This document shows, one piece after another, positions 12,484-64,000 of a DNA stretch of 64,000 nucleotides (the first letter of the stretch is position 1; the number at the start of each line of letters is the position of its first letter). Position numbers and translations under genes: made by a program. Source of the DNA: Poseidonibacter antarcticus (lineage in GTDB: Bacteria; Campylobacterota; Campylobacteria; Campylobacterales; Arcobacteraceae); NCBI RefSeq assembly GCF_003667345.1, contig NZ_RCWF01000002.1, positions 62,001 through 126,000 of the forward strand, read 5' to 3'. The notes under the pieces are model-generated. The model was not told the DNA's origin and searched no databases. It worked only from the letters and a program-made list of their open reading frames with translations.

Positions 12484-15400
12484 ATGGGAAAAATTGAAAA
12501 ATATTTTTATTGGCTTTGCTTTTTTCTAGCTGTTTATATAGTTATAGGCTTTAAATTAATTCCTATAGTTATAAAAGATCAGTTAATAAAAAACCTAGAT
12601 GAAAATTTAGTATTAAAAACTACCGTGCAAAGAGTTGAATTCAATCCATTTATAGCACAGGCGAAAGTTCATAACTTAGCTTTAGTTGATAAAGAAAATA
12701 AAGAAATAATAAGCTTTTCAGAACTTACATTAAATATTGCATTATTACGTTCAATGTTTGAAGCACATATAAGCTTAGATGAAATTTTACTAAAAGATCC
12801 CGTTGTTGATGTTGTTGAAGATCTTGATGGAAATATAAATTTATCAAAGATAGTAAAAGAAACGGAAGTTAAAGAAGAACTAAAAGAAGATGAAAGTTCA
12901 TTAGATATAAAATTTTTAATATCTAAAATAAAACTTGAAAATCTAAATGTAAACTACACAAAGATTACAAAAGACAAGCCTTATCATCTTTCTATAGAAA
13001 ATTCTAACTATACTTTATACGATGTAGGAACATATAAAAATATTCTAGCTTCAAATGATTTGGAATTGAATATAAATAAACATACAAAGCTGATTGTTAC
13101 GGGTGCTTTTAATGTATCACCTTTTAAAATGTACGGTAAAGCTCAAATTATTGATTTACGATTAAAAGAGATTTTAGATCAACAAAAAGAGATAATTGAT
13201 TTTGATATAAATGAAGAAGCTAGTTTAGATTTAGCAATAAACTATAATATTGATATACAAAAAGATTTTAATCTAAAATTTAATACAAGTAAATTAGAAC
13301 TTAACAATATTAATATGAGTAAAAATAAAGAAGATATTATTAAACTTAATAAGTTATTAGTATCAAGATTAGATTTTGATTTATTAACTCAAGATGTAAA
13401 ACTTAATGATATTCAAATCAAAGATTTATATACAAAACTAATCATAGATAAAAGTGGTGTAAATTTAGCAAATTTATTTAAATCTTCTACTAGTGAAAAA
13501 AAACCTACAACAAAAGATGAAACTATTTCAACACCTTCAAAACCTTGGAATATATTATTAACAAATTTAAAACAAACAAATTCAGATTTTGTTTTTACAG
13601 ATAAAACAAGTAATATAGCAGTTGATACTAAAAAATTTAGTACAAATGTTTCAAGTATAAATGTTGCTGGTTCAGATATTACGGTTAGTAATTTTAAAAT
13701 ATCAAATCCAAATATTGAATATCTTGATAACAATAACTCAATGCTTATAAACTCAGATAATAGTAAAATTTCATTTGATAAGTTAGCAATTGCAAATGAT
13801 GATATTAATATCTCAAATATCAATATTGAGAAAAATAATTTCTCTTTTAAAGATAAAAAATCTGCCCTTGATATTAATCTTAATAAACCAAACATCAATA
13901 TTAATAGTCTTAAAATCAAAGGTTCAGATATTTATATCAATAAAATAAATGTAAATACTCCAAAAATTTCATTTGAAGATTCAAAAAATAAAATGAATAT
14001 TCAAACGACAAATACTAACTTGATTACAAATGATTTAAATATTATAAAATCATTTGTTTCAATCACTAGTATCAAACTTGATACACCAAGTCTTAAATTT
14101 AATGATAAAGCTAATAGCTTAGAACTTGACATGAATAAAATAAATGGTAATATCAACTCTTTTTTACTTAATAAAGATGATATTTCAATAAAAACTGTAA
14201 ATATTAAACAAGGTGTCTTAAAACTTAGAGATAATAAAAATAAATTAAACATTGACTCAGAACAAACAGAAGTAAATATAAATAAAATAAAACAGAACAA
14301 AGATTTATTAAGTCTTGAATCACTTAGAATTTATAATCCAAATATTTCGCTTATCAATAAAAAAGACAAAACAAATATTATTGCTAAAAATATAGATATT
14401 AGTGTTACAAATATTTCAAATAGTAAAAATGGTTTAAAAGTTTCAAAAGCAAATATATCAAAACCAAATATATCTGTAATTTTAGAAAAAAATACTTCAA
14501 AAGCGGAAATAAAAGAAGTTGTAGAGAAGAAAAAAGATGAAAAAAGTGCAAAGTTAAATATTGGTCCTATAAATATTAATGATGCGACATTATCATTTGA
14601 AGATAAGAACTTACCTCTTCCTTTTAAAACAATAATAAGTAAATTAAATGGAAAAGTTTCCAAACTTGATACAACTATAGATTCTACATCAAGATTAAAA
14701 GTAAATGGTATTGTTGATAAATATGGTACAACACAAATTACAGGTATTTTAGATCCAAAAAATATAAAAATTTTAACTGATATAAATATGATATTCAAAA
14801 ATATATCTATGCAAAACTTTACACCATATACTGGTAAATTTATCGGTAAAGAATTAAAAAGTGGTAAACTAGACTTAGACTTAAAATATAATATCAAAAA
14901 ATCAAATCTTGATGCAAAGAATAATATTGTAATAACAAAATTAGAACTTGGTAAGAAAGTAGAAAGTAAAGATGCTGTTTCTCTTCCTTTAGAATTAGCT
15001 ATAACTTTATTAGAAGATTCAAATGGTATTATTGATTTAAATATACCTGTTTCTGGTAATATGGATGATCCAAAGTTTGCTATTGGCCCTATTGTTTGGA
15101 AAGCCTTTGTTAATTTAATTACAAAAGCTATAACAGCTCCATTTTCTTTACTTGGATCAATATTCGGTTTTGATGCAGATGAAATAAATAGTGTTAATTT
15201 TAATTATGGAGAAAAAGATATAACTCCAATTCAAAAAGAGACGCTTGATAAAATCTCCATAATATTACAAAAACGTCCAAATCTTGTTTTAGCGTTTAAC
15301 CCTTCATATAATAAAGACAAAGATTTACTTGCTTTAAAAACGATGAAATTTAATAAATTTATTTATAATGAACTAGGTAATAGACAAAAAAAAGATTATA

Positions 15401-15693
15401 AAGAAAATTATCTTGCTTTATTAGAAGAAGTATATGAAGATTTTGATCAGAAACTTAAACCTTTACAAGAAAAATATTTAAATGATGAAAAAGCATATAA
15501 AAATACACTAGAATCATTTATTATTTCAAAACAAAAAGTAAATGAAGAAGACCTTCCAAATCTTGCTTTAAGCAGAATAAACAATATTAAGAATTATTTG
15601 TTAGAAACAAAGAAAATACCAGCTAAACAAATAAAGGTTTCTAAAAAAATTAATATTAAAACTTCAAACATAAATTTAACATTATCTAAATAA
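12484..15693 (+). CDS. Giant AsmA-like / DUF748 repeat protein
   Basis: At 1069 residues this is a large envelope protein. Residues about 8-30 form a single N-terminal membrane anchor; the rest is a long periplasmic beta-rich body. Residues 367-660 comprise seven consecutive repeats of exactly 42 residues, listed separately. The C-terminal part (about 760-900) contains DUF748 features such as SGKLDLDLKYN, SLPLELAITLLEDSNGIIDL and DDPKFAIGPIVWKAFVNLITKA. The tail resembles an OmpA-type end (TPIQKETLDKISIILQKRPN). AsmA/TamB-like proteins form hydrophobic grooves that carry phospholipids between membranes; that role is likely but inferred. Promoter: TATAAT at 12433-12438; AGAGGAT before the ATG. 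Confidence 0.82.
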   Translation: MGKIEKYFYWLCFFLAVYIVIGFKLIPIVIKDQLIKNLDENLVLKTTVQRVEFNPFIAQAKVHNLALVDKENKEIISFSELTLNIALLRSMFEAHISLDEILLKDPVVDVVEDLDGNINLSKIVKETEVKEELKEDESSLDIKFLISKIKLENLNVNYTKITKDKPYHLSIENSNYTLYDVGTYKNILASNDLELNINKHTKLIVTGAFNVSPFKMYGKAQIIDLRLKEILDQQKEIIDFDINEEASLDLAINYNIDIQKDFNLKFNTSKLELNNINMSKNKEDIIKLNKLLVSRLDFDLLTQDVKLNDIQIKDLYTKLIIDKSGVNLANLFKSSTSEKKPTTKDETISTPSKPWNILLTNLKQTNSDFVFTDKTSNIAVDTKKFSTNVSSINVAGSDITVSNFKISNPNIEYLDNNNSMLINSDNSKISFDKLAIANDDINISNINIEKNNFSFKDKKSALDINLNKPNININSLKIKGSDIYINKINVNTPKISFEDSKNKMNIQTTNTNLITNDLNIIKSFVSITSIKLDTPSLKFNDKANSLELDMNKINGNINSFLLNKDDISIKTVNIKQGVLKLRDNKNKLNIDSEQTEVNINKIKQNKDLLSLESLRIYNPNISLINKKDKTNIIAKNIDISVTNISNSKNGLKVSKANISKPNISVILEKNTSKAEIKEVVEKKKDEKSAKLNIGPININDATLSFEDKNLPLPFKTIISKLNGKVSKLDTTIDSTSRLKVNGIVDKYGTTQITGILDPKNIKILTDINMIFKNISMQNFTPYTGKFIGKELKSGKLDLDLKYNIKKSNLDAKNNIVITKLELGKKVESKDAVSLPLELAITLLEDSNGIIDLNIPVSGNMDDPKFAIGPIVWKAFVNLITKAITAPFSLLGSIFGFDADEINSVNFNYGEKDITPIQKETLDKISIILQKRPNLVLAFNPSYNKDKDLLALKTMKFNKFIYNELGNRQKKDYKENYLALLEEVYEDFDQKLKPLQEKYLNDEKAYKNTLESFIISKQKVNEEDLPNLALSRINNIKNYLLETKKIPAKQIKVSKKINIKTSNINLTLSK
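13582..14463 (+). repeat. Seven tandem 126-bp (42-residue) coding repeats
   Basis: Codons 367-660 of the AsmA-like gene divide without any indel into seven units of 42 residues: units start with SDFVF, PNIEY, NNFSF, PKISF, PSLKF, GVLKL and PNISL; an eighth begins at codon 661 with PNISV and then breaks down. Each unit follows P-x-hydrophobic-x-F-x-D-K-x-N-x-L-x-I, a central I-N-x-hydrophobic stretch and an end D-I-x-I-x-x-I-x-I. Nucleotide identity between units looks low, so this is an old protein-level array held by structure. Confidence 0.88.
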
Positions 15694-54756: not shown

Positions 54757-56238
54757 TTATTGAATTTCTGAGTTCAATTTTTCCAATATCTTAACCATCG
54801 CCAAGGTATCCAACTTACAATACTCAATAAGTGCAGTTCGCATTCTTTCTTTTTCGCCCTCTTCCATCTTGCTCATATTTGCAAAGGCGTTCATAGCTTG
54901 GCTTCCATTTTGTACTCCATCTAGTTCTTTGTATGCTTGGGCAAATTTTGGAACTAGTGCTGGTAGTACATATTTGATAGAATATGAACCATTCATTGAT
55001 GGTGTTACGTAGTATTTCTTTTGGAATGGTATCATTAAATCTTTTATATTTTCATTTATACTTAAAAAATTTGTACATAAATTAGGAAAAGAATCTGCTA
55101 GTTTTTTTATAACACCTTTTTCAAAACTCATATTATAAGCTAATACCGTTACATTATTTGGAATATTTTCACACAATGATTTTGCTATTTGCTCTCTTGG
55201 GTCAATTCCATCAAGTGCTAAATACTCTTTGTGTTCTAGTCTTCCATCTTCATACTCAATATGAAGTGAATATTGAAATGGTATTTGTTGGTATGGGCTG
55301 ATAACTTTCCATTCTGGTATGGCTTGTTGGAAAGTTTCAAAATCTAAGTGATAGATAGGATAAGTTAAAGTATCTATGAATTCTTTGATTTTTTCTTTAT
55401 TTATAAATGTTTCTTTTGATTTGTAGATTTGCACTGCTGCTTTTTGATTTGCTGTCATATCAAAATCATCGGGTATATCTTCAATGTTTTTTATACCTTG
55501 TGAATACAATTCAATTTGTTTTTTACTTCCTAGATTGAAGATATTGAAAATAGAATATTCAGGTATTTGTCTTTGCGTTTTCCAACAGTAATCTTTTGCA
55601 TCACAAACGTATGGATCATGACAATGTTTTCCTATATCAATATTTGGTTCGTTTATCTTATCTTCTAATACTGTTTCAAACTCTTTTAAAATACTAGGAA
55701 TATTTATCTGTAAGTCTACAACTTCTTGTGTAATATCTGCAATAGTAAAAAGCTCATCCAATTCTAAAGTATCAGCTCTTATATAAGAGCTATTGATATG
55801 TACTACATTTGCAGTTTTTATAGAAAATCCTAGTTGTTTTAATACATAGTATTGAATAGAAGTATCATGAACATATATATCTTTTACACTTGATGAACTT
55901 TTTACTTCATAAATACAAACTCCATCTTCATTTATTTCTAAAACATCGACCATAACCAAAATACCATCAAAAGAAAAAGTAGCTTCATAAATATACTTGA
56001 TACCATCATCTATATATTTTCTAGTTTGTTTTATCATCTCATCAAAGTTTGTAGTATAGGCAATTTCTCGACCATTTGGGAAAAGTTTACAAGCTAAAGT
56101 TCCTACTTCATTACCTGTTTCAAATCTAGCTAATGCTGTTTCATCTGGTGGAGTTAGTACTTCTTTTCTGTACTTTTTTAGCCAAAGTGCTTTTTGGCAT
56201 TGGATGCCTTTTGTGTATAGCGATTTAGATAGGTTCAT
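54757..56238 (-). CDS. DUF2779 protein: RecB/Cas4-like nuclease fused to a DEDD exonuclease
   Basis: At 493 residues, the N-terminal half has the Cas4/RecB pattern: CQKALWLKKYRKE (first Cys, residue 13), Asp in VMVDVLEIN, the E-x-K pair in VCIYEVKSSS and the QYYVLKQLG motif, followed by Cys residues in GKHCHDPYVCDAKDYCW, apt for a 4Fe-4S cluster. The C-terminal half (from about residue 290) has IYHLDFETFQQAIP (D-x-E), a typical DnaQ-like exonuclease start, and a late AYNMSFEKGVIKKL with final CKLDTLAMVKIL (His replaced or Asp-terminal). It overlaps abi by 14 nt. An almost identical 5' copy lies at 57178-57534. Substrate unknown; likely part of the defence island. Confidence 0.78.
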   Translation of the reverse strand: MNLSKSLYTKGIQCQKALWLKKYRKEVLTPPDETALARFETGNEVGTLACKLFPNGREIAYTTNFDEMIKQTRKYIDDGIKYIYEATFSFDGILVMVDVLEINEDGVCIYEVKSSSSVKDIYVHDTSIQYYVLKQLGFSIKTANVVHINSSYIRADTLELDELFTIADITQEVVDLQINIPSILKEFETVLEDKINEPNIDIGKHCHDPYVCDAKDYCWKTQRQIPEYSIFNIFNLGSKKQIELYSQGIKNIEDIPDDFDMTANQKAAVQIYKSKETFINKEKIKEFIDTLTYPIYHLDFETFQQAIPEWKVISPYQQIPFQYSLHIEYEDGRLEHKEYLALDGIDPREQIAKSLCENIPNNVTVLAYNMSFEKGVIKKLADSFPNLCTNFLSINENIKDLMIPFQKKYYVTPSMNGSYSIKYVLPALVPKFAQAYKELDGVQNGSQAMNAFANMSKMEEGEKERMRTALIEYCKLDTLAMVKILEKLNSEIQ

Positions 56239-56857
56239 TTATAAGTTCCTTTGTAAAAACACAAATTTCATCATCAAAATATGTTAATAAGGTATAAATA
56301 TCTTCTTTTATATTAAGATATTCTTGTTTATGAATAATTCGTTCATAATGAAATATCCTATTTCTAAACTTTCGGATTTTATTTAACTCTTTATCTAGTT
56401 CATATCTTGTAATAAATTTCTCATTTTTTTTTGGAATATTTGGGAAGATATTTTTTATATCTTTTATTCTAAATAAATTTGAATATGACTTTCTAAATAA
56501 CGATGTCCAAAAGCCAAAAGATAATTCAGCAATGATTTTATCATGATTTATTTTTTCTTTTCTTTGAGAGATCTTATTTTTAGATTCAATAATTCTTTGT
56601 TTTGTATCTCTATGAAGTATTTCTGAGCTTAACCAATCTTTAGAAATCTTTTCTCTAAAATAATTATCTATAGAATTTCTTAAACTAATTTCAAATATTG
56701 ACAATAAAATATAATATTCTTTTGAATCTTTAATATTTTGTTTATATTCATCAAAATCTTTATAAGGACTAAGCCGAATGTCACTTATAAATTTCGATTT
56801 AATATCATCTCTCACTTGACTTTCCTTAATTATTTTTATATAATCCCAATACGACAC
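56225..56857 (-). CDS. Abi-family (AbiD/F-like) HEPN protein
   Basis: The 210-residue protein is an abortive infection protein of the Abi_2 type: STYWDY-like start MSYWDYIKIIKESQVRDD, LLSIFEISLRNSIDNYFREK, IIAELSFGFWTSLFRKSY and a HEPN RNase motif IRKFRNRIFHYERII (R-x4-H) near residues 164-174. It starts at GTG inside a conserved-looking leader. AbiF-type proteins act as toxins, sometimes with a noncoding RNA antitoxin from the 5' region. It overlaps the DUF2779 gene. Function in phage defence is inferred from family. Confidence 0.8.
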   Translation of the reverse strand: MSYWDYIKIIKESQVRDDIKSKFISDIRLSPYKDFDEYKQNIKDSKEYYILLSIFEISLRNSIDNYFREKISKDWLSSEILHRDTKQRIIESKNKISQRKEKINHDKIIAELSFGFWTSLFRKSYSNLFRIKDIKNIFPNIPKKNEKFITRYELDKELNKIRKFRNRIFHYERIIHKQEYLNIKEDIYTLLTYFDDEICVFTKELINEPI

Positions 56858-56938
56858 CCAGTAAGTCTTAAGCCTTTGAGTTTAAGCTTGGGTTTTTTTA
56901 TGTCTAATTTTTATCGTTTTCCCGACGTCGGCAGAATA
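56851..56938 (-). ncRNA. Structured leader upstream of abi (candidate AbiF-associated RNA)
   Basis: The minus-strand sequence has a self-complementary CCGACGTCGG (56923-56932), then CCCAAGCTTAAAC and GGCTTAAGACTTACTGGGTGTCG running into the abi GTG. ACCCA (56890s) pairs with TGGGT (56856-56860) around an inner TTAA stem, and CGAC of the palindrome can pair with GTCG at the gene start. A conserved abiF RNA motif has been described upstream of such genes; this is a candidate member. On the plus strand the same hairpin ends in T7 and could be a terminator instead. Confidence 0.5.
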
Positions 56939-57072
56939 TTCTAAAATGCCTTCTTACTATATAATCTTTTGTATTATAATATAAATATTAATTGTTATTA
57001 AAATATATTTCATTTTGTAATATTTATTTTATTCTTTTTTAAGATTAGAATTCATTTATAAATTACTATTTT

Positions 57073-57135
57073 ATGATAAAATACCAGTCTAAATTCCTTC
57101 GGGACGACCCATCTTTTGATGGGGTTAATCAATCA
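57073..57135 (+). ncRNA. Short structured element, possible small RNA
   Basis: This stretch lies in the gap between abi and the truncated DUF2779 copy. It holds TCC-TTCG-GGA (57099-57108, a UUCG tetraloop stem) followed by ACCCATC-TTTT-GATGGGGT (57110-57128). The sequence TATGATAAAAT just upstream (57072-57082) resembles a -10 box on the plus strand. GC content is well above its flanks, which are plain AT-rich spacer (56945-57070). Whether it is transcribed, and from which strand, is unknown. Confidence 0.35.
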
Positions 57136-57177
57136 AATTTTTAAACTTCTTTTTCTCTTGGAAAAATATTGATAGTA

Positions 57178-57534
57178 TCAATAAAATTTTGATTTAATAT
57201 TTAAATAAATACCTTGAATTTTTAATATCTCTACAGACACAGTAATATGATTGAAAGAAAAAGTAGCTTCATAAATATACTTGATACCATCTTCTATATA
57301 TTTTCTAGTTTGTTTTATCATCTCATCAAAGTTTGTAGTATAGACTATTTCTCGACCATTTGGGAAAAGCTCACAAGCTAAGTCCCCTACTTCATTACCC
57401 GTTTCAAATCTAGCTAATGCTGTTTCATCAGGTGGAGTTAGTACTTCTTTATTGTACTTTTTTAGACAAAGTGCTTTTTGGCATTGGATGCCTTTTGTGT
57501 ATAGGGATTTAGATAGGTTCATAGATAAACTCAT
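57178..57534 (-). pseudogene. Truncated duplicate of the DUF2779 gene
   Basis: This 118-codon frame starts at ATG 57534, overlapping the hamB stop (TGATG), or at ATG 57522 that matches the start of the intact gene. It is almost identical to the first ~95 residues of the DUF2779 protein (CQKALCLKKYNKE, TPPDETALARFETGNEVG, EMIKQTRKYIEDGIKYIYEA) and then diverges and stops after IQGIYLNIKSKFY. It lacks the ExK nuclease core, the cysteine cluster and the exonuclease half, so it cannot act as a nuclease. It marks where DUF2779 originally followed hamB. Confidence 0.82.
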
Positions 57535-60044
57535 CAAGCTAATAAATTCTTAATTTCTTGTTTACAAATTTCAGGAATATCTAGAAAATTTACCTCAATA
57601 TTTTGTAATGCCTTAAAACAATTAGTTGAAGACGGTTCTTCACAAGAAAAGTATTTTGATTGTTTTAGTTTAATACTAGTTAGCCTTGATAATCCCAAAG
57701 AAATTAAATTTATTACAATTAGGTCAGCTGATCCACATTCTAAATATAATGGCAAATTAGGAATATTTTCAAATTCATCATCAGTAAGCTTTTTTTCTTC
57801 AATAACTAACTTTAATATGTCTATATATGCACCTGTATATAAAACATATTTGAACCTAACATAACTTTCAATTATATTTAAAGTTTCTCTAATACTAGAA
57901 TTAATTGTTCTTGATGGATTATTCTTTGCGTAGTAATTGTGATTACTATTAATAATTTCACTTAATGTATTATCATGTATCCATGAAGACGCATATTTTG
58001 AATATAGTTTATATTGAAAATTAATTTTATTTAAAAAAATGATATCAATTTTTTCAAATATTTTAGATAATCGTTCATTAGTTCCATCTTCATATGGTAA
58101 TTCTTTCTTCTTTTGAAAAACATTTTTTGGTACCCACAATTTTAAATCATTTTCATTTTTAAAAAAAAGATATAATTCATTTAAACTCTTTGGATGAATA
58201 GAATAATGTTTTTTTATTATTTCGGTAGACACTTCCAACTTATATTTTTCACACTCTGTTATTACTTTTTGTAATTCATCTTTATTAATTAACTTCTTAT
58301 CATCCTTTAAACGTGAATCTCCAATTAAAAAATCAGCATAAAACTTTCCAAAAACAGGTAAGTATTCAATAAATTCTAAAGAATTATGATTTTTGGATAA
58401 TTCTATTAATGATTCACTATTATTATTTAAGATTTTAATATAATATGATTCAATTGTTTGAAGTTTTTCGCCCTCAAAACTCTTATTTTCCCAATCAGAA
58501 GGATCAATACACCATATATTTCCTTGAAATTCACATTTTAATCTACCTGCTCTTCCAATTAAATTAAGAAAATCTCTTCTTTCCATCGGTTTTGATTGTC
58601 CTTTAAAAGGATTAAATAATATGATGTTTTTTGTTGGAAGATTAACTCCTTGAAGAAGAGTACTTGTTGAAAAAACAAATTTTAACTTTCCATCACTTGC
58701 TAATTTCTCTATACTTGCCCTTACCGTTGATGGCACTTTCCCATAATGATAAGATACACCTTTTTTTAAACACTTTATAAGAGAATAATCTTTGTGAATA
58801 TCTTCTTCAATAAAATTTATTAATGATTCTATTTCTTCATCAACTACTTCCTCCTCAATTGAGTCCGCAATCTTTAATGCTAACCTTTCTGTATCTGATG
58901 GATTATTACAATAAATTAAAGTTAACTCATCATCTTTTGTAATTTCCTTTGCTAATGTAATCATGCGATCACTTTTTCGGAATTTTCCGTTAAAGTTTAT
59001 TTCACCTAAATCAATATATTCATTACTGTGTAATAACTCCATCTTTGCTAATTTTGGTTTTCTACTTATAGAAGATAGAAAAATTATATTTTGACCAACA
59101 GGAGACAAATTCTCTGTAAAATATTTTTTATCAGTATCTAAATCTAAAAGATCATTGAAATATTCAGGATTACTAATTAAAGGACTTGCAAAAAATAAAT
59201 TAATATTTGGAAATCTACGGAGTATAATTTCTAATGTATTTTGGAGAACCACTCCTCTATTACTTTGTATTTCTTGTGCTTCATCAACAAATAATGTGTC
59301 CAAAGAAATTTCTGTTTCACATAATAGTGTATTTAATCTTTCTTGAGTCAATACATATATAATACCTTTATCATTAATATCATCTTCTACAAGAGGAACA
59401 GTCCTTACATTTATATCATTAGCTAAATTATATTCTTTTAATCCATTAAAAACTTTTTCACTTAATTCTTTTATCAATGCTCTTGTAGGTACAACTAACA
59501 CAATTTTTTCTTTCTTATTTTGAATAAATCTTTTAATAATAGATAATGTGAAAACATAAGATTTCCCAGCGGATGTTGGAGCAGAAACACTATAAAATTT
59601 TTCATTAGTTAATATATCAAAAAACTGTTTTTGAAAATCTGTTAATAATGATTTATTACCCAATAGATTAATACTATTTTCAACTTCTCTAGAAATAGTT
59701 TCAATTTTTAAAATTGGGCTTTGATTAAGATTATTGTCATTAAAACCATAGTCATTTAATAATTCTCTATTTGGAAAATTACCTAATCTTGATAAAATTG
59801 AATATGCGATTGAATATAAGTTTGGATATGAACTATGAAAAATTTTAAATAATTTTGTAATTATTTCATAAGCTAATGCTTGTTCTTCATTATTATCACT
59901 TAATGATTTTATTGAAGAAATTTTACATAAATATTCAATTTCTTCTTCAGATATTTTACAATCATTAATTAATTCTAAACCTTCATGTAAGTTTTGACTA
60001 ATATCCATAATTACTAACTTGTTTATAATTTCTGTTTCATTCAT
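57534..60044 (-). CDS. hamB: Hachiman helicase HamB
   Basis: The 836-residue SF2 helicase has Walker A in FYSVSAPTSAGKSYVF near residues 147-158, the DEAH/Q box LFVDEAQEIQS near 250, motif III FFASPLISN, motif IV-V FSTSTLLQGVNLPTKNIILF and the arginine-finger motif FLNLIGRAGRLKCEFQG. Length and the low-complexity C-terminus agree with HamB. It follows hamA by 12 nt on the same strand. HamA-HamB form the Hachiman anti-phage system in which the helicase senses DNA damage or free ends and releases the HamA nuclease. Confidence 0.85.
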   Translation of the reverse strand: MNETEIINKLVIMDISQNLHEGLELINDCKISEEEIEYLCKISSIKSLSDNNEEQALAYEIITKLFKIFHSSYPNLYSIAYSILSRLGNFPNRELLNDYGFNDNNLNQSPILKIETISREVENSINLLGNKSLLTDFQKQFFDILTNEKFYSVSAPTSAGKSYVFTLSIIKRFIQNKKEKIVLVVPTRALIKELSEKVFNGLKEYNLANDINVRTVPLVEDDINDKGIIYVLTQERLNTLLCETEISLDTLFVDEAQEIQSNRGVVLQNTLEIILRRFPNINLFFASPLISNPEYFNDLLDLDTDKKYFTENLSPVGQNIIFLSSISRKPKLAKMELLHSNEYIDLGEINFNGKFRKSDRMITLAKEITKDDELTLIYCNNPSDTERLALKIADSIEEEVVDEEIESLINFIEEDIHKDYSLIKCLKKGVSYHYGKVPSTVRASIEKLASDGKLKFVFSTSTLLQGVNLPTKNIILFNPFKGQSKPMERRDFLNLIGRAGRLKCEFQGNIWCIDPSDWENKSFEGEKLQTIESYYIKILNNNSESLIELSKNHNSLEFIEYLPVFGKFYADFLIGDSRLKDDKKLINKDELQKVITECEKYKLEVSTEIIKKHYSIHPKSLNELYLFFKNENDLKLWVPKNVFQKKKELPYEDGTNERLSKIFEKIDIIFLNKINFQYKLYSKYASSWIHDNTLSEIINSNHNYYAKNNPSRTINSSIRETLNIIESYVRFKYVLYTGAYIDILKLVIEEKKLTDDEFENIPNLPLYLECGSADLIVINLISLGLSRLTSIKLKQSKYFSCEEPSSTNCFKALQNIEVNFLDIPEICKQEIKNLLA

Positions 60045-60056
60045 AGTATTATCCTA

Positions 60057-60989
60057 TTATAGTTTTGCATTAAAAGAATTTCTTAACTCTTGTACACTTT
60101 GAAATGGTAGAAAAAAAACATCAAAAGAAAATTCTTTTTTTGAAAACTTATCAAATCTCGATTGAATTAAAGAAGTTAGTCGTTTGGTTTCTTCTTCGTA
60201 TAATGTAACAAAATTTTCTATAAAATACTTCCTCTCATCATTATCAAGTTTCATATATTGATCCCAGTCATAACCAATAAGACAAGCATGTCTTATTTTA
60301 ACTTCATCTTGTTCTATTTGATTTGTAATAAATTGATAAACTTTATCTTGCTGACTGTCATTTAAATGTTTATAATGAGTTGTAACTAAATTATATTCTC
60401 TTGAATGCATTGAGTCTTCATGAAATTTTTCTATACTCTCAAATGCGCTATCAAGTGCCCCATATATATTATTATAAAATTTAGCTTCACCAAAATATAA
60501 GTTTAAAACTTCTTCATCTATTTTTACATGTATCCCATCTGAGCCAAAAACTTCTAATTTTGAATTCGTTTTTAAATCCATTTTTGCAACTATTTGTGGA
60601 GCTTTCAAAATTACTTCCATAAGTAACCACAAAATCATTTCTCCTATTTCTCCAGCTTTAGGTTGATTGTCATCAGTTATATCCTCATCTTTCCATTTCC
60701 TAAATAAAGCCCTAGCCTCATCTTTTAATTGACTAAAAAACATTTCTTTTTCTACATCACTCATTCCATCACTATTTCTTTTTTTTGATGAAAAACAATA
60801 ATGTGTAAAATAAGCAAACAATATATCAATTAATTTATCTATTTTTGGATTTCCATTTGGGTCAAATTTTAAATACTTAAAATGTAAATCAACTTCAACC
60901 CCATTAACAATATTTGTATGTTCAACATTGTCAAAAACCATATCATAATATTTTTTTGAACCAATAATATATTTTTCTAATTCATTCAT
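60057..60989 (-). CDS. hamA: Hachiman effector nuclease HamA (DUF1837)
   Basis: The 310-residue protein matches DUF1837. The nuclease core is visible: QPKAGEIGEMILWLLMEVIL (Glu-114, Glu-117), KLEVFGSDGIHV (Asp-151) and VLNLYFGEAKFYN (Glu-168, Lys-170), i.e. a PD-(D/E)xK site. HamA degrades DNA in the cytosol once freed from HamB. The adjacent helicase supports a complete Hachiman system. The start MNELEKYI is at ATG 60989, preceded by AGGAAAATTAT. Confidence 0.87.
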   Translation of the reverse strand: MNELEKYIIGSKKYYDMVFDNVEHTNIVNGVEVDLHFKYLKFDPNGNPKIDKLIDILFAYFTHYCFSSKKRNSDGMSDVEKEMFFSQLKDEARALFRKWKDEDITDDNQPKAGEIGEMILWLLMEVILKAPQIVAKMDLKTNSKLEVFGSDGIHVKIDEEVLNLYFGEAKFYNNIYGALDSAFESIEKFHEDSMHSREYNLVTTHYKHLNDSQQDKVYQFITNQIEQDEVKIRHACLIGYDWDQYMKLDNDERKYFIENFVTLYEEETKRLTSLIQSRFDKFSKKEFSFDVFFLPFQSVQELRNSFNAKL

Positions 60990-61012: not shown

Positions 61013-61828
61013 TTACATTTCCAATATTGAATTTGCAAGTCTTTTTTCTGTTCCAATTAAAGTAGTATAATATCGTTGTTCAATTCCAAATAGTACTAAC
61101 TTGAGATGATCTTCTGTTTCAATAACAAATGTATTATTACTAATATTTAAATCAACACAATAAGATTGTGTATAATCACAAATTTGAATAACTTCATCAT
61201 CAGTAAAACGACTAAGAGTATCTAGTGCCATAGCAATTCTTCTTCTATTTGCAACTTTAACACTTGCCGAAGTAAAATTATTTCCTAATGAAATAAAATC
61301 TTTATTAAGAAAAGTATTAACTTCAACTTGAGTTGCTTCTCTATAAAGGTCACCTATCCCGTTAAACATTTGCTTTATTTTTACAATATCTTTAAAATAA
61401 AGGATATCTTCGTCTTTATTATAAATTGCGTCAATCCAATCATTTATTACTATAATTGGTTTATCTCTTTGTAATGAAGGAGAATCTGAAATATGAAGCC
61501 ATTTTTTTGATAGTAGTTGAGTTTGTGATAATTTTTGGAATAAAAATAAATTATCTTGTTTACAACATAGGTATATAATATCTTTATATTGTATTGGTAA
61601 AATCTGATTATGATTTGTACCAGAAAAAGTTCTCTCTATTAAACCATTTCTAAAAGTACGTCCCAAAAAATTATCTAATCTAAACCACTCATCATCATCT
61701 AGCTTGTACGTAGGTGCATAATTTTCATTATTTGATAAGTCTGGTACCTCAAAGATACTATCTCTTGTTGCTATAACCTTTAAAAAGTTATCACCTCTGC
61801 CTTTTATTTTTGCTAATAAATAATTCAT
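61013..61828 (-). CDS. KwaB-like protein (DUF4868-type) of a Kiwa-like pair
   Basis: The 271-residue soluble protein has an N-terminal beta-rich part (LLAKIKGRGDNFLKVIATR) and a C-terminal region (NRRRIAMALDTLSRFTDDEV, YTQSYCVDLNISNNTF, LVLFGIEQRYYTTLIGTEKR) that resembles the DUF4868/KwaB pattern of conserved Arg and Tyr-Thr residues before a terminal helix. Its ATG overlaps the stop of the tetraspan membrane protein gene (ATGA), the same linkage as kwaA-kwaB. The assignment rests on this architecture; similarity to KwaB is remembered, not searched. Kiwa acts at the membrane against phage infection. It lies 23 nt from hamA. Confidence 0.58.
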   Translation of the reverse strand: MNYLLAKIKGRGDNFLKVIATRDSIFEVPDLSNNENYAPTYKLDDDEWFRLDNFLGRTFRNGLIERTFSGTNHNQILPIQYKDIIYLCCKQDNLFLFQKLSQTQLLSKKWLHISDSPSLQRDKPIIVINDWIDAIYNKDEDILYFKDIVKIKQMFNGIGDLYREATQVEVNTFLNKDFISLGNNFTSASVKVANRRRIAMALDTLSRFTDDEVIQICDYTQSYCVDLNISNNTFVIETEDHLKLVLFGIEQRYYTTLIGTEKRLANSILEM

Positions 61829-62441
61829 TCTTCTTCCTTTTTTATATCAATAAATGTATAATTTGTAATTCTTTTTAGTTCACTGAATTCAATATCTAAG
61901 GTATTCTTTAACTCTCTCTTGGTTATTAATAATACTTTTACATTATTATTATTTGTCACATAATAAAAGTTAAATCCAAAGAGAAAAAACATTGGATTAA
62001 AATAAGATATTCTTGAATAAAATATAAATATTGCAATTATTCCAAATACTACAAAAAATATTTGAATATCTGTTACGCTTAATGCTACGAAAAAATATCC
62101 CAAATAGCTTGGTAAAAAAGCATCATTTGCTGGTTCAATATTAGTTATTGTATTTTCTTCAATACTGTCATCTGATAAATATTTAATAAAAAATATACTA
62201 ATACTAGATAAAATTAGTATCACTATAAAATAAATAGAATAAGAAACCATATTTAATACTTCATATAAGTTATTTATAATAAATTCAGATCCAATTTTTT
62301 TTCTACTAGATAACTACATGTTTGATAATAATAATATTCGATGCTTTCAATTGTCATTTTATTATTAATTGCAAAAATTACAAAAGATAAGGATAGAGAA
62401 TTTATTATTAAAAAAAATCTAAATATATAACTCATAATCAT
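61825..62441 (-). pseudogene. KwaA-like tetraspan membrane protein, split by a frameshift at an A8 tract
   Basis: Two frames cover this span: 62441-62274 (MIMSYIFRFFL... ending VEKKLDLNLL) and 62250-61825 (MVSYSIYF..., 141 residues). At 62295-62302 the minus strand has eight A's. One added A turns the reading into VEKKIGSEFIINNLYEVLNM and runs straight into the second frame, giving about 205 residues with four membrane segments (TM1 SYIFRFFLIINS, TM2 YSIYFIVILILSSIS, TM3/4 in LGYFFVALSV...IIAIFIFY and FFLFGFNFYY). That is the size and topology of KwaA. The cause may be phase variation, slippage or a sequencing error. Confidence 0.7.
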
Positions 62442-62442
62442 A

Positions 62443-62757
62443 TTAGGAATATACTCCCCAATCTCTTTCAAAAATCCAATTTGGTTCCCATTTTACATAA
62501 TCTGCGGGATCAAAACTTTCAGATTCTAATACATTAATTTCTTGTATTTGATTAGGAAATAATGGTAGGTTATGTCTACTATTTGGACTGTTTAAATCAA
62601 AGAAATGATATTTATCACTTTTATCCTTTGATTTAGAACTAACTCCATAATCGAATGGAACACATTTTCTTTCTCTGATTTGACCATCACTCTTAGCAAT
62701 AAACCTAACCTCTATTAACTTTTTATTATTAATCGCTTCTAAAAACTTTTCTAACAT
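62443..62757 (-). CDS. Small conserved hypothetical protein between sbcC and the Kiwa-like genes
   Basis: The 104-residue protein is soluble and starts at ATG 62757 with AAAAGGAAAAG upstream, 12 nt after sbcC. It begins with a helix (EKFLEAINNKKLIEVRFIAKS) followed by a strand-rich part, DGQIRERKCVPFDYGVSSK and NLPLFPNQIQEINVLESESF, that recalls the WYL fold (a basic strand, then R-x-F/P-I/L motifs), though the match is loose. The end VKWEPNWIFERDWGVYS is aromatic. It is the first gene after sbcC and may be co-transcribed with both sides. I cannot name a function. Confidence 0.6.
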   Translation of the reverse strand: MLEKFLEAINNKKLIEVRFIAKSDGQIRERKCVPFDYGVSSKSKDKSDKYHFFDLNSPNSRHNLPLFPNQIQEINVLESESFDPADYVKWEPNWIFERDWGVYS

Positions 62758-62769
62758 TACTTTTCCTTT

Positions 62770-64000
62770 TTAATTCATCTCAACAAAACTAGTCCCATCA
62801 CCCCGAGGCTCAACCTTTATCTGCAATGGTATTCGCTCTTTCAGTGCTTGCACATGTGAAATCACACCGACCATTTTCCCGCTGCTTTGTAGTAGGTTTA
62901 GTGCATTTAGTGCTAACTCTAGGCTATCTTCATCTAGTGTTCCAAATCCTTCATCTAAAAACAGTGAATCTATTGCTATTTTTTGACTAGCTAGGCTTGA
63001 AAGTCCTAAGGCTAGTGAAAGGCTTACTATGAAGCTTTCTCCTCCTGATAGTGTGCTTACTGGTCTTATTGTATTTCCTTGAAAACTATCACATACATCT
63101 ATTTCTAGGATTTGTTTTGGTTCACGACTTCTTTGTAGTTCGTATCTGCTTGATAATAAATTCAAGTGTTGGTTTGCTAGATTTATTAATTGGTCTAGTG
63201 TAATTCCTTGGGCAAATTTGGCGAATTTATTTCCATCCGCTGATCCTATCATTTCATTTAGTTTTACCCATACTTTAAACTTTTCTTTTTTTTCTTCTAG
63301 TTCTTGTATTTTTTCTTTGTGTTTTTGGCTGTCTTCTTCGTTTCTTTTTAGTGTTTGGCTTAATGCTCCTATATTTTCTTGGAGTTCATCTATTTTTGAT
63401 TGTAATTCTTGAAGTTCTTGGACTACCTCATCTATAGTTTTTTTCTTTTCTTTTGATTCTTGATTTTTTTCTTCTTTTTCTTTGTGTTCTTTTAGTTTAT
63501 CTTGTGTGTCTTGTTTTAGTGTTTTATAGTTATTGTATGTTTCATCTATTTTTTTACATAACAGAGCTAATTCTTCTCTTTGCTCTTTTTCTAAGATTGC
63601 TTTTTTAAACTCTTCAATATTTTCAAAGTCATTTGCTTGTAGTTCTATTTCTAATTTTTCTTTTAATTGCTTAGATATGTCTTCATTTGATGTTATATTT
63701 GTTTGAAGTTGGTTTTTTTGTTGTTCTTGTTGTTCTTGTGTTGTTTGAAGTTTTGTTAACTCATTTTTTAGGTTTTTTTCTTTTTCTTGTATATTTTGAT
63801 AATTTGTATTAAGTTCTATTTCATATATGTCTATATCTGCTATATTTAAAATACTTGTACTTTTTTCTTTTTGCTCTTTTATGAACTCTTCATATTTAGC
63901 TTCAGTTTCTTTTTGTGTTTTTACTGTAGTTTTTATATCTGTTAGTTTTGTTTCTAGTTCTTTTATTTGTAGGGCTTTTTGATTCTTTTCTAGCTCACAC
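62770..64000 (-). CDS. sbcC: Exonuclease SbcC, C-terminal part (start beyond window)
   Basis: The frame is open from the right edge to the stop at 62770-62772, 410 codons. The first ~245 residues are long Lys/Glu coiled coil typical of the SbcC/Rad50 arm. The end has the C-terminal head: LNEMIGSADGNKFAKFAQ, the ABC signature VSTLSGGESFIVSLSLALGLSS and Walker B SLFLDEGFGTLDEDSLELAL, then MVGVISHVQALKERIPLQIKV. SbcCD cleaves hairpins and blocked DNA ends. sbcC here sits at the right border of the defence island. Confidence 0.93.
   Translation of the reverse strand, partial: CELEKNQKALQIKELETKLTDIKTTVKTQKETEAKYEEFIKEQKEKSTSILNIADIDIYEIELNTNYQNIQEKEKNLKNELTKLQTTQEQQEQQKNQLQTNITSNEDISKQLKEKLEIELQANDFENIEEFKKAILEKEQREELALLCKKIDETYNNYKTLKQDTQDKLKEHKEKEEKNQESKEKKKTIDEVVQELQELQSKIDELQENIGALSQTLKRNEEDSQKHKEKIQELEEKKEKFKVWVKLNEMIGSADGNKFAKFAQGITLDQLINLANQHLNLLSSRYELQRSREPKQILEIDVCDSFQGNTIRPVSTLSGGESFIVSLSLALGLSSLASQKIAIDSLFLDEGFGTLDEDSLELALNALNLLQSSGKMVGVISHVQALKERIPLQIKVEPRGDGTSFVEMN

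Follow-up and report, generated by a model that had tools for sequence, protein, structure and literature searches.

Integrons carry stacks of gene cassettes that all face the same way and are bounded by repeated sequences. The locus described here is alike in that its modules are stacked in a single orientation between repeated boundaries, but these boundaries are 5' fragments, variable in length, of a protein-coding gene. Defence-island hotspots of E. coli have been described as integration sites of mobile elements between core genes (PMC10121019). With these hotspots the locus shares constant flanking genes and the presence of many defence systems at one address, whereas it shows no mobile element in the modules examined, occurs on plasmids too, and is flanked by nuclease genes (SbcCD and a predicted Cas4/DEDD fusion, then dgt), with stubs of a flank gene lying between modules. 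A further precedent concerns a single module: AbiF has an RNA antitoxin, RCd22 (PMC12373285), and PD-T4-5 has been reported to be distantly related to AbiF/D (PMC9519451). Similarly, the HEPN Abi protein of the present locus is preceded by a short structured RNA, although this hairpin has no match to the Rfam abiF family.

The window, that is, the whole 64,000-nt stretch of DNA that was analysed, comes from Poseidonibacter antarcticus (contig NZ_RCWF01000002.1, positions 62,001 to 126,000). Its DUF2779 gene is referred to as D, the truncated upstream stub copy as T, and the start of the intact downstream D as F. The order on the minus strand is sbcD, sbcC, a 104-aa ORF, kwaA, kwaB, hamA, hamB, T, a mazF-like remnant with an element b, an element a with abi, and D (Table 1). 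The sbcC gene continues in G000:C2, with sbcD ahead of it; 3' of D, the window holds a small two-gene pair resembling a toxin-antitoxin pair and then arfB. The names SbcCD, MazF-like and arfB derive from reading the sequences and from the annotation of homologues, that of the decayed MazF-like remnant being assigned by eye. Both genes of the Kiwa pair are present, with moderate scores, as are both genes of the Hachiman pair. On the A. cryaerophilus plasmid pCNAC48, the gene in the position of the 104-aa ORF carries a WYL annotation.

Table 1. Features of the window, and copies of element b in other genomes
Feature	Position	Strand	Remarks
sbcC 3' part, left slot landmark	62770..63999	-	homologues upstream of D in most family loci
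104-aa ORF	62443..62757	-	homologue directly after sbcC in L078 and L128 slots, 55-57% identity
kwaA (Kiwa)	61825..62250	-	PADLOC KwaA 55.1 bits; NCBIfam KwaA 25.4 bits, below cut-off
kwaB (Kiwa)	61013..61828	-	PADLOC KwaB 59.1 bits
hamA (Hachiman)	60057..60989	-	Pfam HamA 169.8 bits, PADLOC HamA 291.9 bits
hamB (Hachiman helicase)	57534..60044	-	PADLOC HamB 756 bits
stub T, first ~276 nt of DUF2779	57247..57522	-	truncated copy; ORF 57178-57537
decayed MazF/PemK-like C-terminus (KKKFKNLID, stop)	57125..57154	-	80% over 10 residues to G042 gene carrying element b
element b, variable hairpin then GTCGTCCCGNAGGAATTTAGA	57064..57155	-	at 3' end of MazF-like genes elsewhere
element a, covarying hairpin RNA	56856..56894	-	directly upstream of abi
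HEPN/Abi gene	56225..56857	-	PADLOC PD-T4-5 55.7 bits; RNRIFH (Rx4H) motif; probable start GTG 56815
full-length D, right slot landmark	54757..56238	-	Pfam DUF2779 154.5 bits
element b copies	G042:C15:104477, G092:C6:37815, G044:C4:24805, G062:C2:214457		

In the Arcobacteraceae and their relatives, D closes a slot that opens at an sbcD-sbcC or Mre11/Rad50 pair. A match to D, whole or partial, was found in 56 of the 104 family genomes, and SbcD/SbcC or Mre11/Rad50 sequence lies upstream of it in 34 of the 51 loci examined (our own count). Between the landmarks are compact, mostly co-directional genes that differ from genome to genome and include Kiwa, Hachiman, Gabija, Mokosh, SIR2-HerA, Lamassu and others. 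PADLOC models (Gabija, Mokosh, SIR2-HerA, Old, Ppl, Lamassu, Ietas, HamB-like, restriction) were matched by 24 of 30 slot proteins tested, a count that refers to hand-picked, mostly large proteins and stands without a background rate. To this content the window adds kwaAB, hamAB and abi. Constant flanks with contents varying across genomes are the marks of a defence hotspot; since no integrase or transposase was found in the stub-bounded modules examined, the slot does not classify as an integration hotspot of mobile elements. An empty slot is seen in a Sulfurimonadaceae genome (L133), where sbcC and D overlap. The left border offers a mirror image, with isolated sbcC 3' ends and, in L070, a repeat of the last ~93 nt of sbcC. 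No description of an sbcC-DUF2779 hotspot was found in the literature searched; one plasmid paper tables SbcCD, DUF2779 and dGTPase, and a term search of it returned no discussion of a hotspot.

A dGTPase gene is frequently found 3' of D, often after a second variable stretch. Thus, the backbone of the Aliarcobacter plasmids reads parAB, a RelA/SpoT-domain gene, sbcD, sbcC, slot 1, D, slot 2, dgt. Two such plasmids, pAFAEC and pM830MA, share ~94% identity up to the end of sbcC and, starting at the second base of D, 98.5% identity across 13.4 kb, with unrelated slot 1 contents; their difference is exactly one whole slot, bounded by the sbcC end and the D ATG. The annotation splits the D gene of pAFAEC (L244 14001-15476) into two ORFs (14001-14186 and 14202-15476), and this copy may therefore be broken near its start. 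On pCNAC48 a transposase lies downstream of D, outside slot 1. The same region (L246 15856-23805) carries annotated ere(B), msr(D) and mef(A) genes together with transposases, and these resistance genes occupy the place that slot 2 and dgt have in other plasmids of the kind. This plasmid was considered, and rejected, as a clean counterpart of pAFAEC with the Mokosh site empty, its DUF6602 gene being unalignable to pAFAEC's at the DNA level.

The sequence-only reading of the window had reported about 276 bp of the DUF2779 start in two copies 1284 bp apart. The duplication is real, at 93-94% identity. A repeat search of the window returned a direct repeat of 300 nt (55934-56233 / 57218-57517; 90%, spacing 1284), BLAST aligned T and F at 94.4% over 269 nt beginning exactly at the D ATG, and a base-by-base count gave 93.1% over 276 nt, the longest identical runs being 51, 38, 38 and 29 nt. 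Past nucleotide ~276-281 of D the similarity falls away. The upstream copy is truncated and coupled to hamB, as had been proposed, through a TGATG in which the hamB stop and a start codon are shared (CTTGATGAGTTTATCTATGAACC), the conserved D ATG lying 12 nt downstream. The downstream copy is intact and, again as proposed, overlapped by abi, the ORF of which ends 14 nt within D with a stop drawn from D's own CTATCTAA. A HEPN/Abi gene does lie between the copies, but what had been taken for its leader resolves into two separate elements, b and a. T and F are mutually closest (93-94%, against at most about 89% for the other alleles tested), which fits either a fairly recent duplication or gene conversion at a later time. 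The suggestion that the flanking repeats could excise the module agrees with their length (276 nt, identical runs up to 51 nt); recombination between T and F would delete 1284 bp and re-join hamB to D.

These features had been interpreted as the recent arrival of an Abi module within a hamA-hamB-DUF2779 operon. The evidence supports that interpretation in treating abi as an addition between hamB and D, but this is not the whole story. A single event is too narrow a reading, because D, rather than being a Hachiman gene, forms the constant end of a slot for many kinds of defence system, and the second, decayed module between stub and abi (a mazF-like C-terminus plus an RNA-like element) indicates at least two layered events. 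A role of DUF2779 as a Hachiman component is not supported: window-type hamA lies near no other D examined, and D elsewhere comes after Mokosh, SIR2-HerA plus Mokosh, abi, MazF-like or other genes. In the family search, which covered one genome per species, no other window-type hamB was found, only distant helicases, and neither an excised circle nor a within-species pair with and without the window's own module was seen. The genome with a hamB-DUF2779 junction and no abi that had been called for was found once, in Epsilonproteobacteria bacterium SZUA-451 (L132), where a full-length DUF2779 begins 4 nt past the stop of a HamB (655 bits, PADLOC). This HamB is distant from that of the window (31% identical), and the contig begins inside hamB. 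A related abi (89% identical protein) lies between two D stubs in G065, so that the abi-plus-stub layout is not unique to the window genome.

Stubs of D recur between modules. They measure 32-388 nt, are all direct, and always begin at codon 1. Besides the window, stubs upstream of an intact D are found in G065 (388 + 78 nt), G078, G069, G060, G012, G032, G082 and G033 (two), in two Sulfurovum genomes (L115, 152 nt; L177, 67 nt) and, weakly, in G021; the last genome carries the same D locus on C8 and C11 (L082, L083) with identical match scores, either a true duplication or an assembly effect. In four genomes (G054, G102, G085, G080) a stub lies without an intact D nearby, and in L123 a stub lies downstream of D. 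Of 110 D genes, 11 are accompanied in their locus by a partial direct duplicate anchored at the start, versus 11 of 1251 other ORFs (Fisher p = 2e-7, a guide only, as the 110 are distinct D loci of which related ones are partly non-independent); several of the latter 11 are tandem paralogues. About nine in ten D loci have no detectable stub. Compared with the intact D in their own locus, stubs are between 82% and 99% identical, indicating that stub ages differ widely. Both stubs of G065 (L054) are followed by AGTTCCGGTGACAGTTTACTTAATTATA, which none of the other loci searched contains. The left-end motif AGTTCCGGTGACAGTTTAC, shared behind these two stubs, was discarded as a general feature, being confined to that locus.

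The cargo behind a stub can be compared with the stub itself. A Mokosh module (MkoA-like, 1120 aa, and MkoB-like, 434 aa) sits behind a stub of 77-84 nt in G069, G060 and G012 (A. faecis pAFAEC), with different cargo upstream of the stub (Old, Ppl and SIR2-HerA-DUF6602, respectively) and different landmark types. Between G069 and G060, two different species, the Mokosh cargo is 99.2% identical over 4654 nt, versus 8 mismatches in 77 nt for the stub and 91.4% for D, and in a sliding plot the identity changes abruptly on reaching the stub and D. Likewise, the cargo of an 896-aa module behind a ~120-nt stub in G078, G082 and G085 is 95-96% identical, its stub 80-92%. The contrast is strong in one pair and moderate in the others. 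Cargo identity above flank identity indicates that the cargo moved more recently than the D-derived flanks diverged, as would be expected if crossovers fall in those flanks.

The slot, its varied contents, the stubs, and cargo closer between genomes than the D-derived flanks are direct observations. They probably reflect an exchangeable defence slot in which modules enter, leave and stack by homologous recombination on landmark arms, stubs staying at the junctions. The window locus would be one instance, with sbcD-sbcC (or Mre11/Rad50) on the left, the 5' end of D on the right, and these conserved landmark genes serving as arms once DNA has entered by natural transformation or on a plasmid. 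Where modules stack, the junction would keep a 5' stub of D; redundant D copies in tandem cargo-D-X arrays would lose their 3' part, giving rise to many stubs, which could then act as ready-made homology arms. The layers of the window would accordingly read kwaAB-hamAB, T, the decayed mazF-like module, the hairpin RNA with the HEPN abi, and intact D. On these grounds the D stubs look like both scars and handles of module exchange.

It is conceivable, if unlikely, that the stubs are passive relics: tandem cargo-D-X units would arise by duplication or transfer and the upstream D would lose its 3' part, with no role in later exchange. The genes that follow stubs (896 aa, 694 aa, Bro-N, abi) sit directly behind an intact D in other genomes, and the L061 stub consists of D codons 1-79 joined directly to a match of codons 459-493, so that many stubs probably are redundant D copies without their 3' part. 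Stops and non-synonymous changes in stubs point the same way. The occurrence of those genes behind intact D also weakens the notion that entry of new modules always takes place inside D. Evidence against purely passive relics comes from the G069/G060 tract of 99.2% identity that spans from stub to D while stub and D themselves are ~9-10% diverged, and from one stub length in three genomes with unrelated cargo upstream. The cargo-versus-flank comparisons of the Mokosh and 896-aa modules favour use of stubs as later arms over scars only.

That stubs are instead kept for a function, for example as a leader peptide, for translational coupling or as a free N-terminal domain of D, is very improbable: they are in frame from codon 1 and several are open over their whole length, but lengths vary widely, T differs from F by 8 non-synonymous and 6 synonymous codon changes, and the stubs of L059 and L061 contain internal stops. 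Least credible of all is a site-specific or transposable element that inserts at the 5' end of D, bringing a new 5' end and leaving the old one behind, since the common start at codon 1, a possible hint of a fixed site, is explained simply by cargo always abutting the D ATG, while the inner ends of the stubs are scattered between 32 and 388 nt, annotated stub-bounded modules lack an integrase or transposase, and a conserved DNA site at the D start finds no support in synonymous conservation (0.69 over codons 1-20 versus about 0.65 overall).

Exchange by homologous recombination could be taken a step further, to an integron-like platform that works without a recombinase, the D 5' stubs being kept as portable arms while the nucleases SbcCD and D promote capture, stacking and loss of cassettes; we regard this extension as doubtful. 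The D protein itself is predicted to be a fusion of a Cas4-like Fe-S nuclease with a DEDD-type exonuclease. Residues C14, C206, C212, C218, E111 and K113 are invariant, and the structure model (pLDDT 93.7) matches Cas4 and the exonuclease of DNA polymerase B; as predicted, the N-terminal part combines four putative Fe-S cysteines, PD-(D/E)XK-type residues and a Cas4 fold.

The abi protein of the window matches PD-T4-5 (E 1.1e-15) and contains a HEPN Rx4-6H motif; it has no match in Pfam or NCBIfam. Its listed start, GTG 56857, falls within the conserved hairpin, and GTG 56815 is likelier because homologues carry in-frame stops upstream of that point. Homologues occur in 17 family genomes. Hairpin a, of the form CCC..AGCU..stem..RNCUUAC..GGG, immediately precedes the gene in 19 of 19 close homologues (homologous loci L033-L045, L253-L257). 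Among 17 distinct sequences, 95.8% of cells are paired and 8 pairs show compensatory changes, with a covariation score of 0.462; shuffles scored 0.187, and sliding gave no more than 0.117. The abiF RNA (RF03085) was rejected as its identity, the hairpin having no match in Rfam; other abi loci gave only sub-threshold scores against abiF (22.9 vs 37 bits). Hairpin a persists with no abi behind it in G091 (next to D), G019 and G002. More distant homologues (the L081-locus relatives L046, L049, L258, L259) have a different hairpin ~90-105 nt upstream (..GAGAGGA..), which suggests that each abi subfamily has its own RNA. Given the AbiF/RCd22 precedent and the distant relationship of PD-T4-5 to AbiF/D, hairpin a is a candidate RNA antitoxin, and by analogy the abi module is probably AbiF-like, with a HEPN RNase toxin restrained by the hairpin RNA upstream. 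Element b belongs to another kind of module. It lies at the 3' end of MazF-like genes (G042, G092, G044, G058, G032), often just upstream of D; its stem sequence changes while the trailing GTCGTCCCGNAGGAATTTAGA is near-constant. In the window, the element b region adjoining the decayed C-terminus gives a DNA match of 85-91%.

The locus bears on how strains swap defence systems in the absence of an integrase. Its stubs would provide a readable record of successive module gains, with boundaries resolved to the base, and the presence of the slot on chromosomes as well as plasmids makes natural comparison pairs available. The landmarks may also serve as bait, any gene between sbcC and DUF2779 in the Campylobacterota being a candidate defence gene, and the covarying hairpin beside a PD-T4-5-like HEPN protein is an RNA-antitoxin candidate missing from Rfam.
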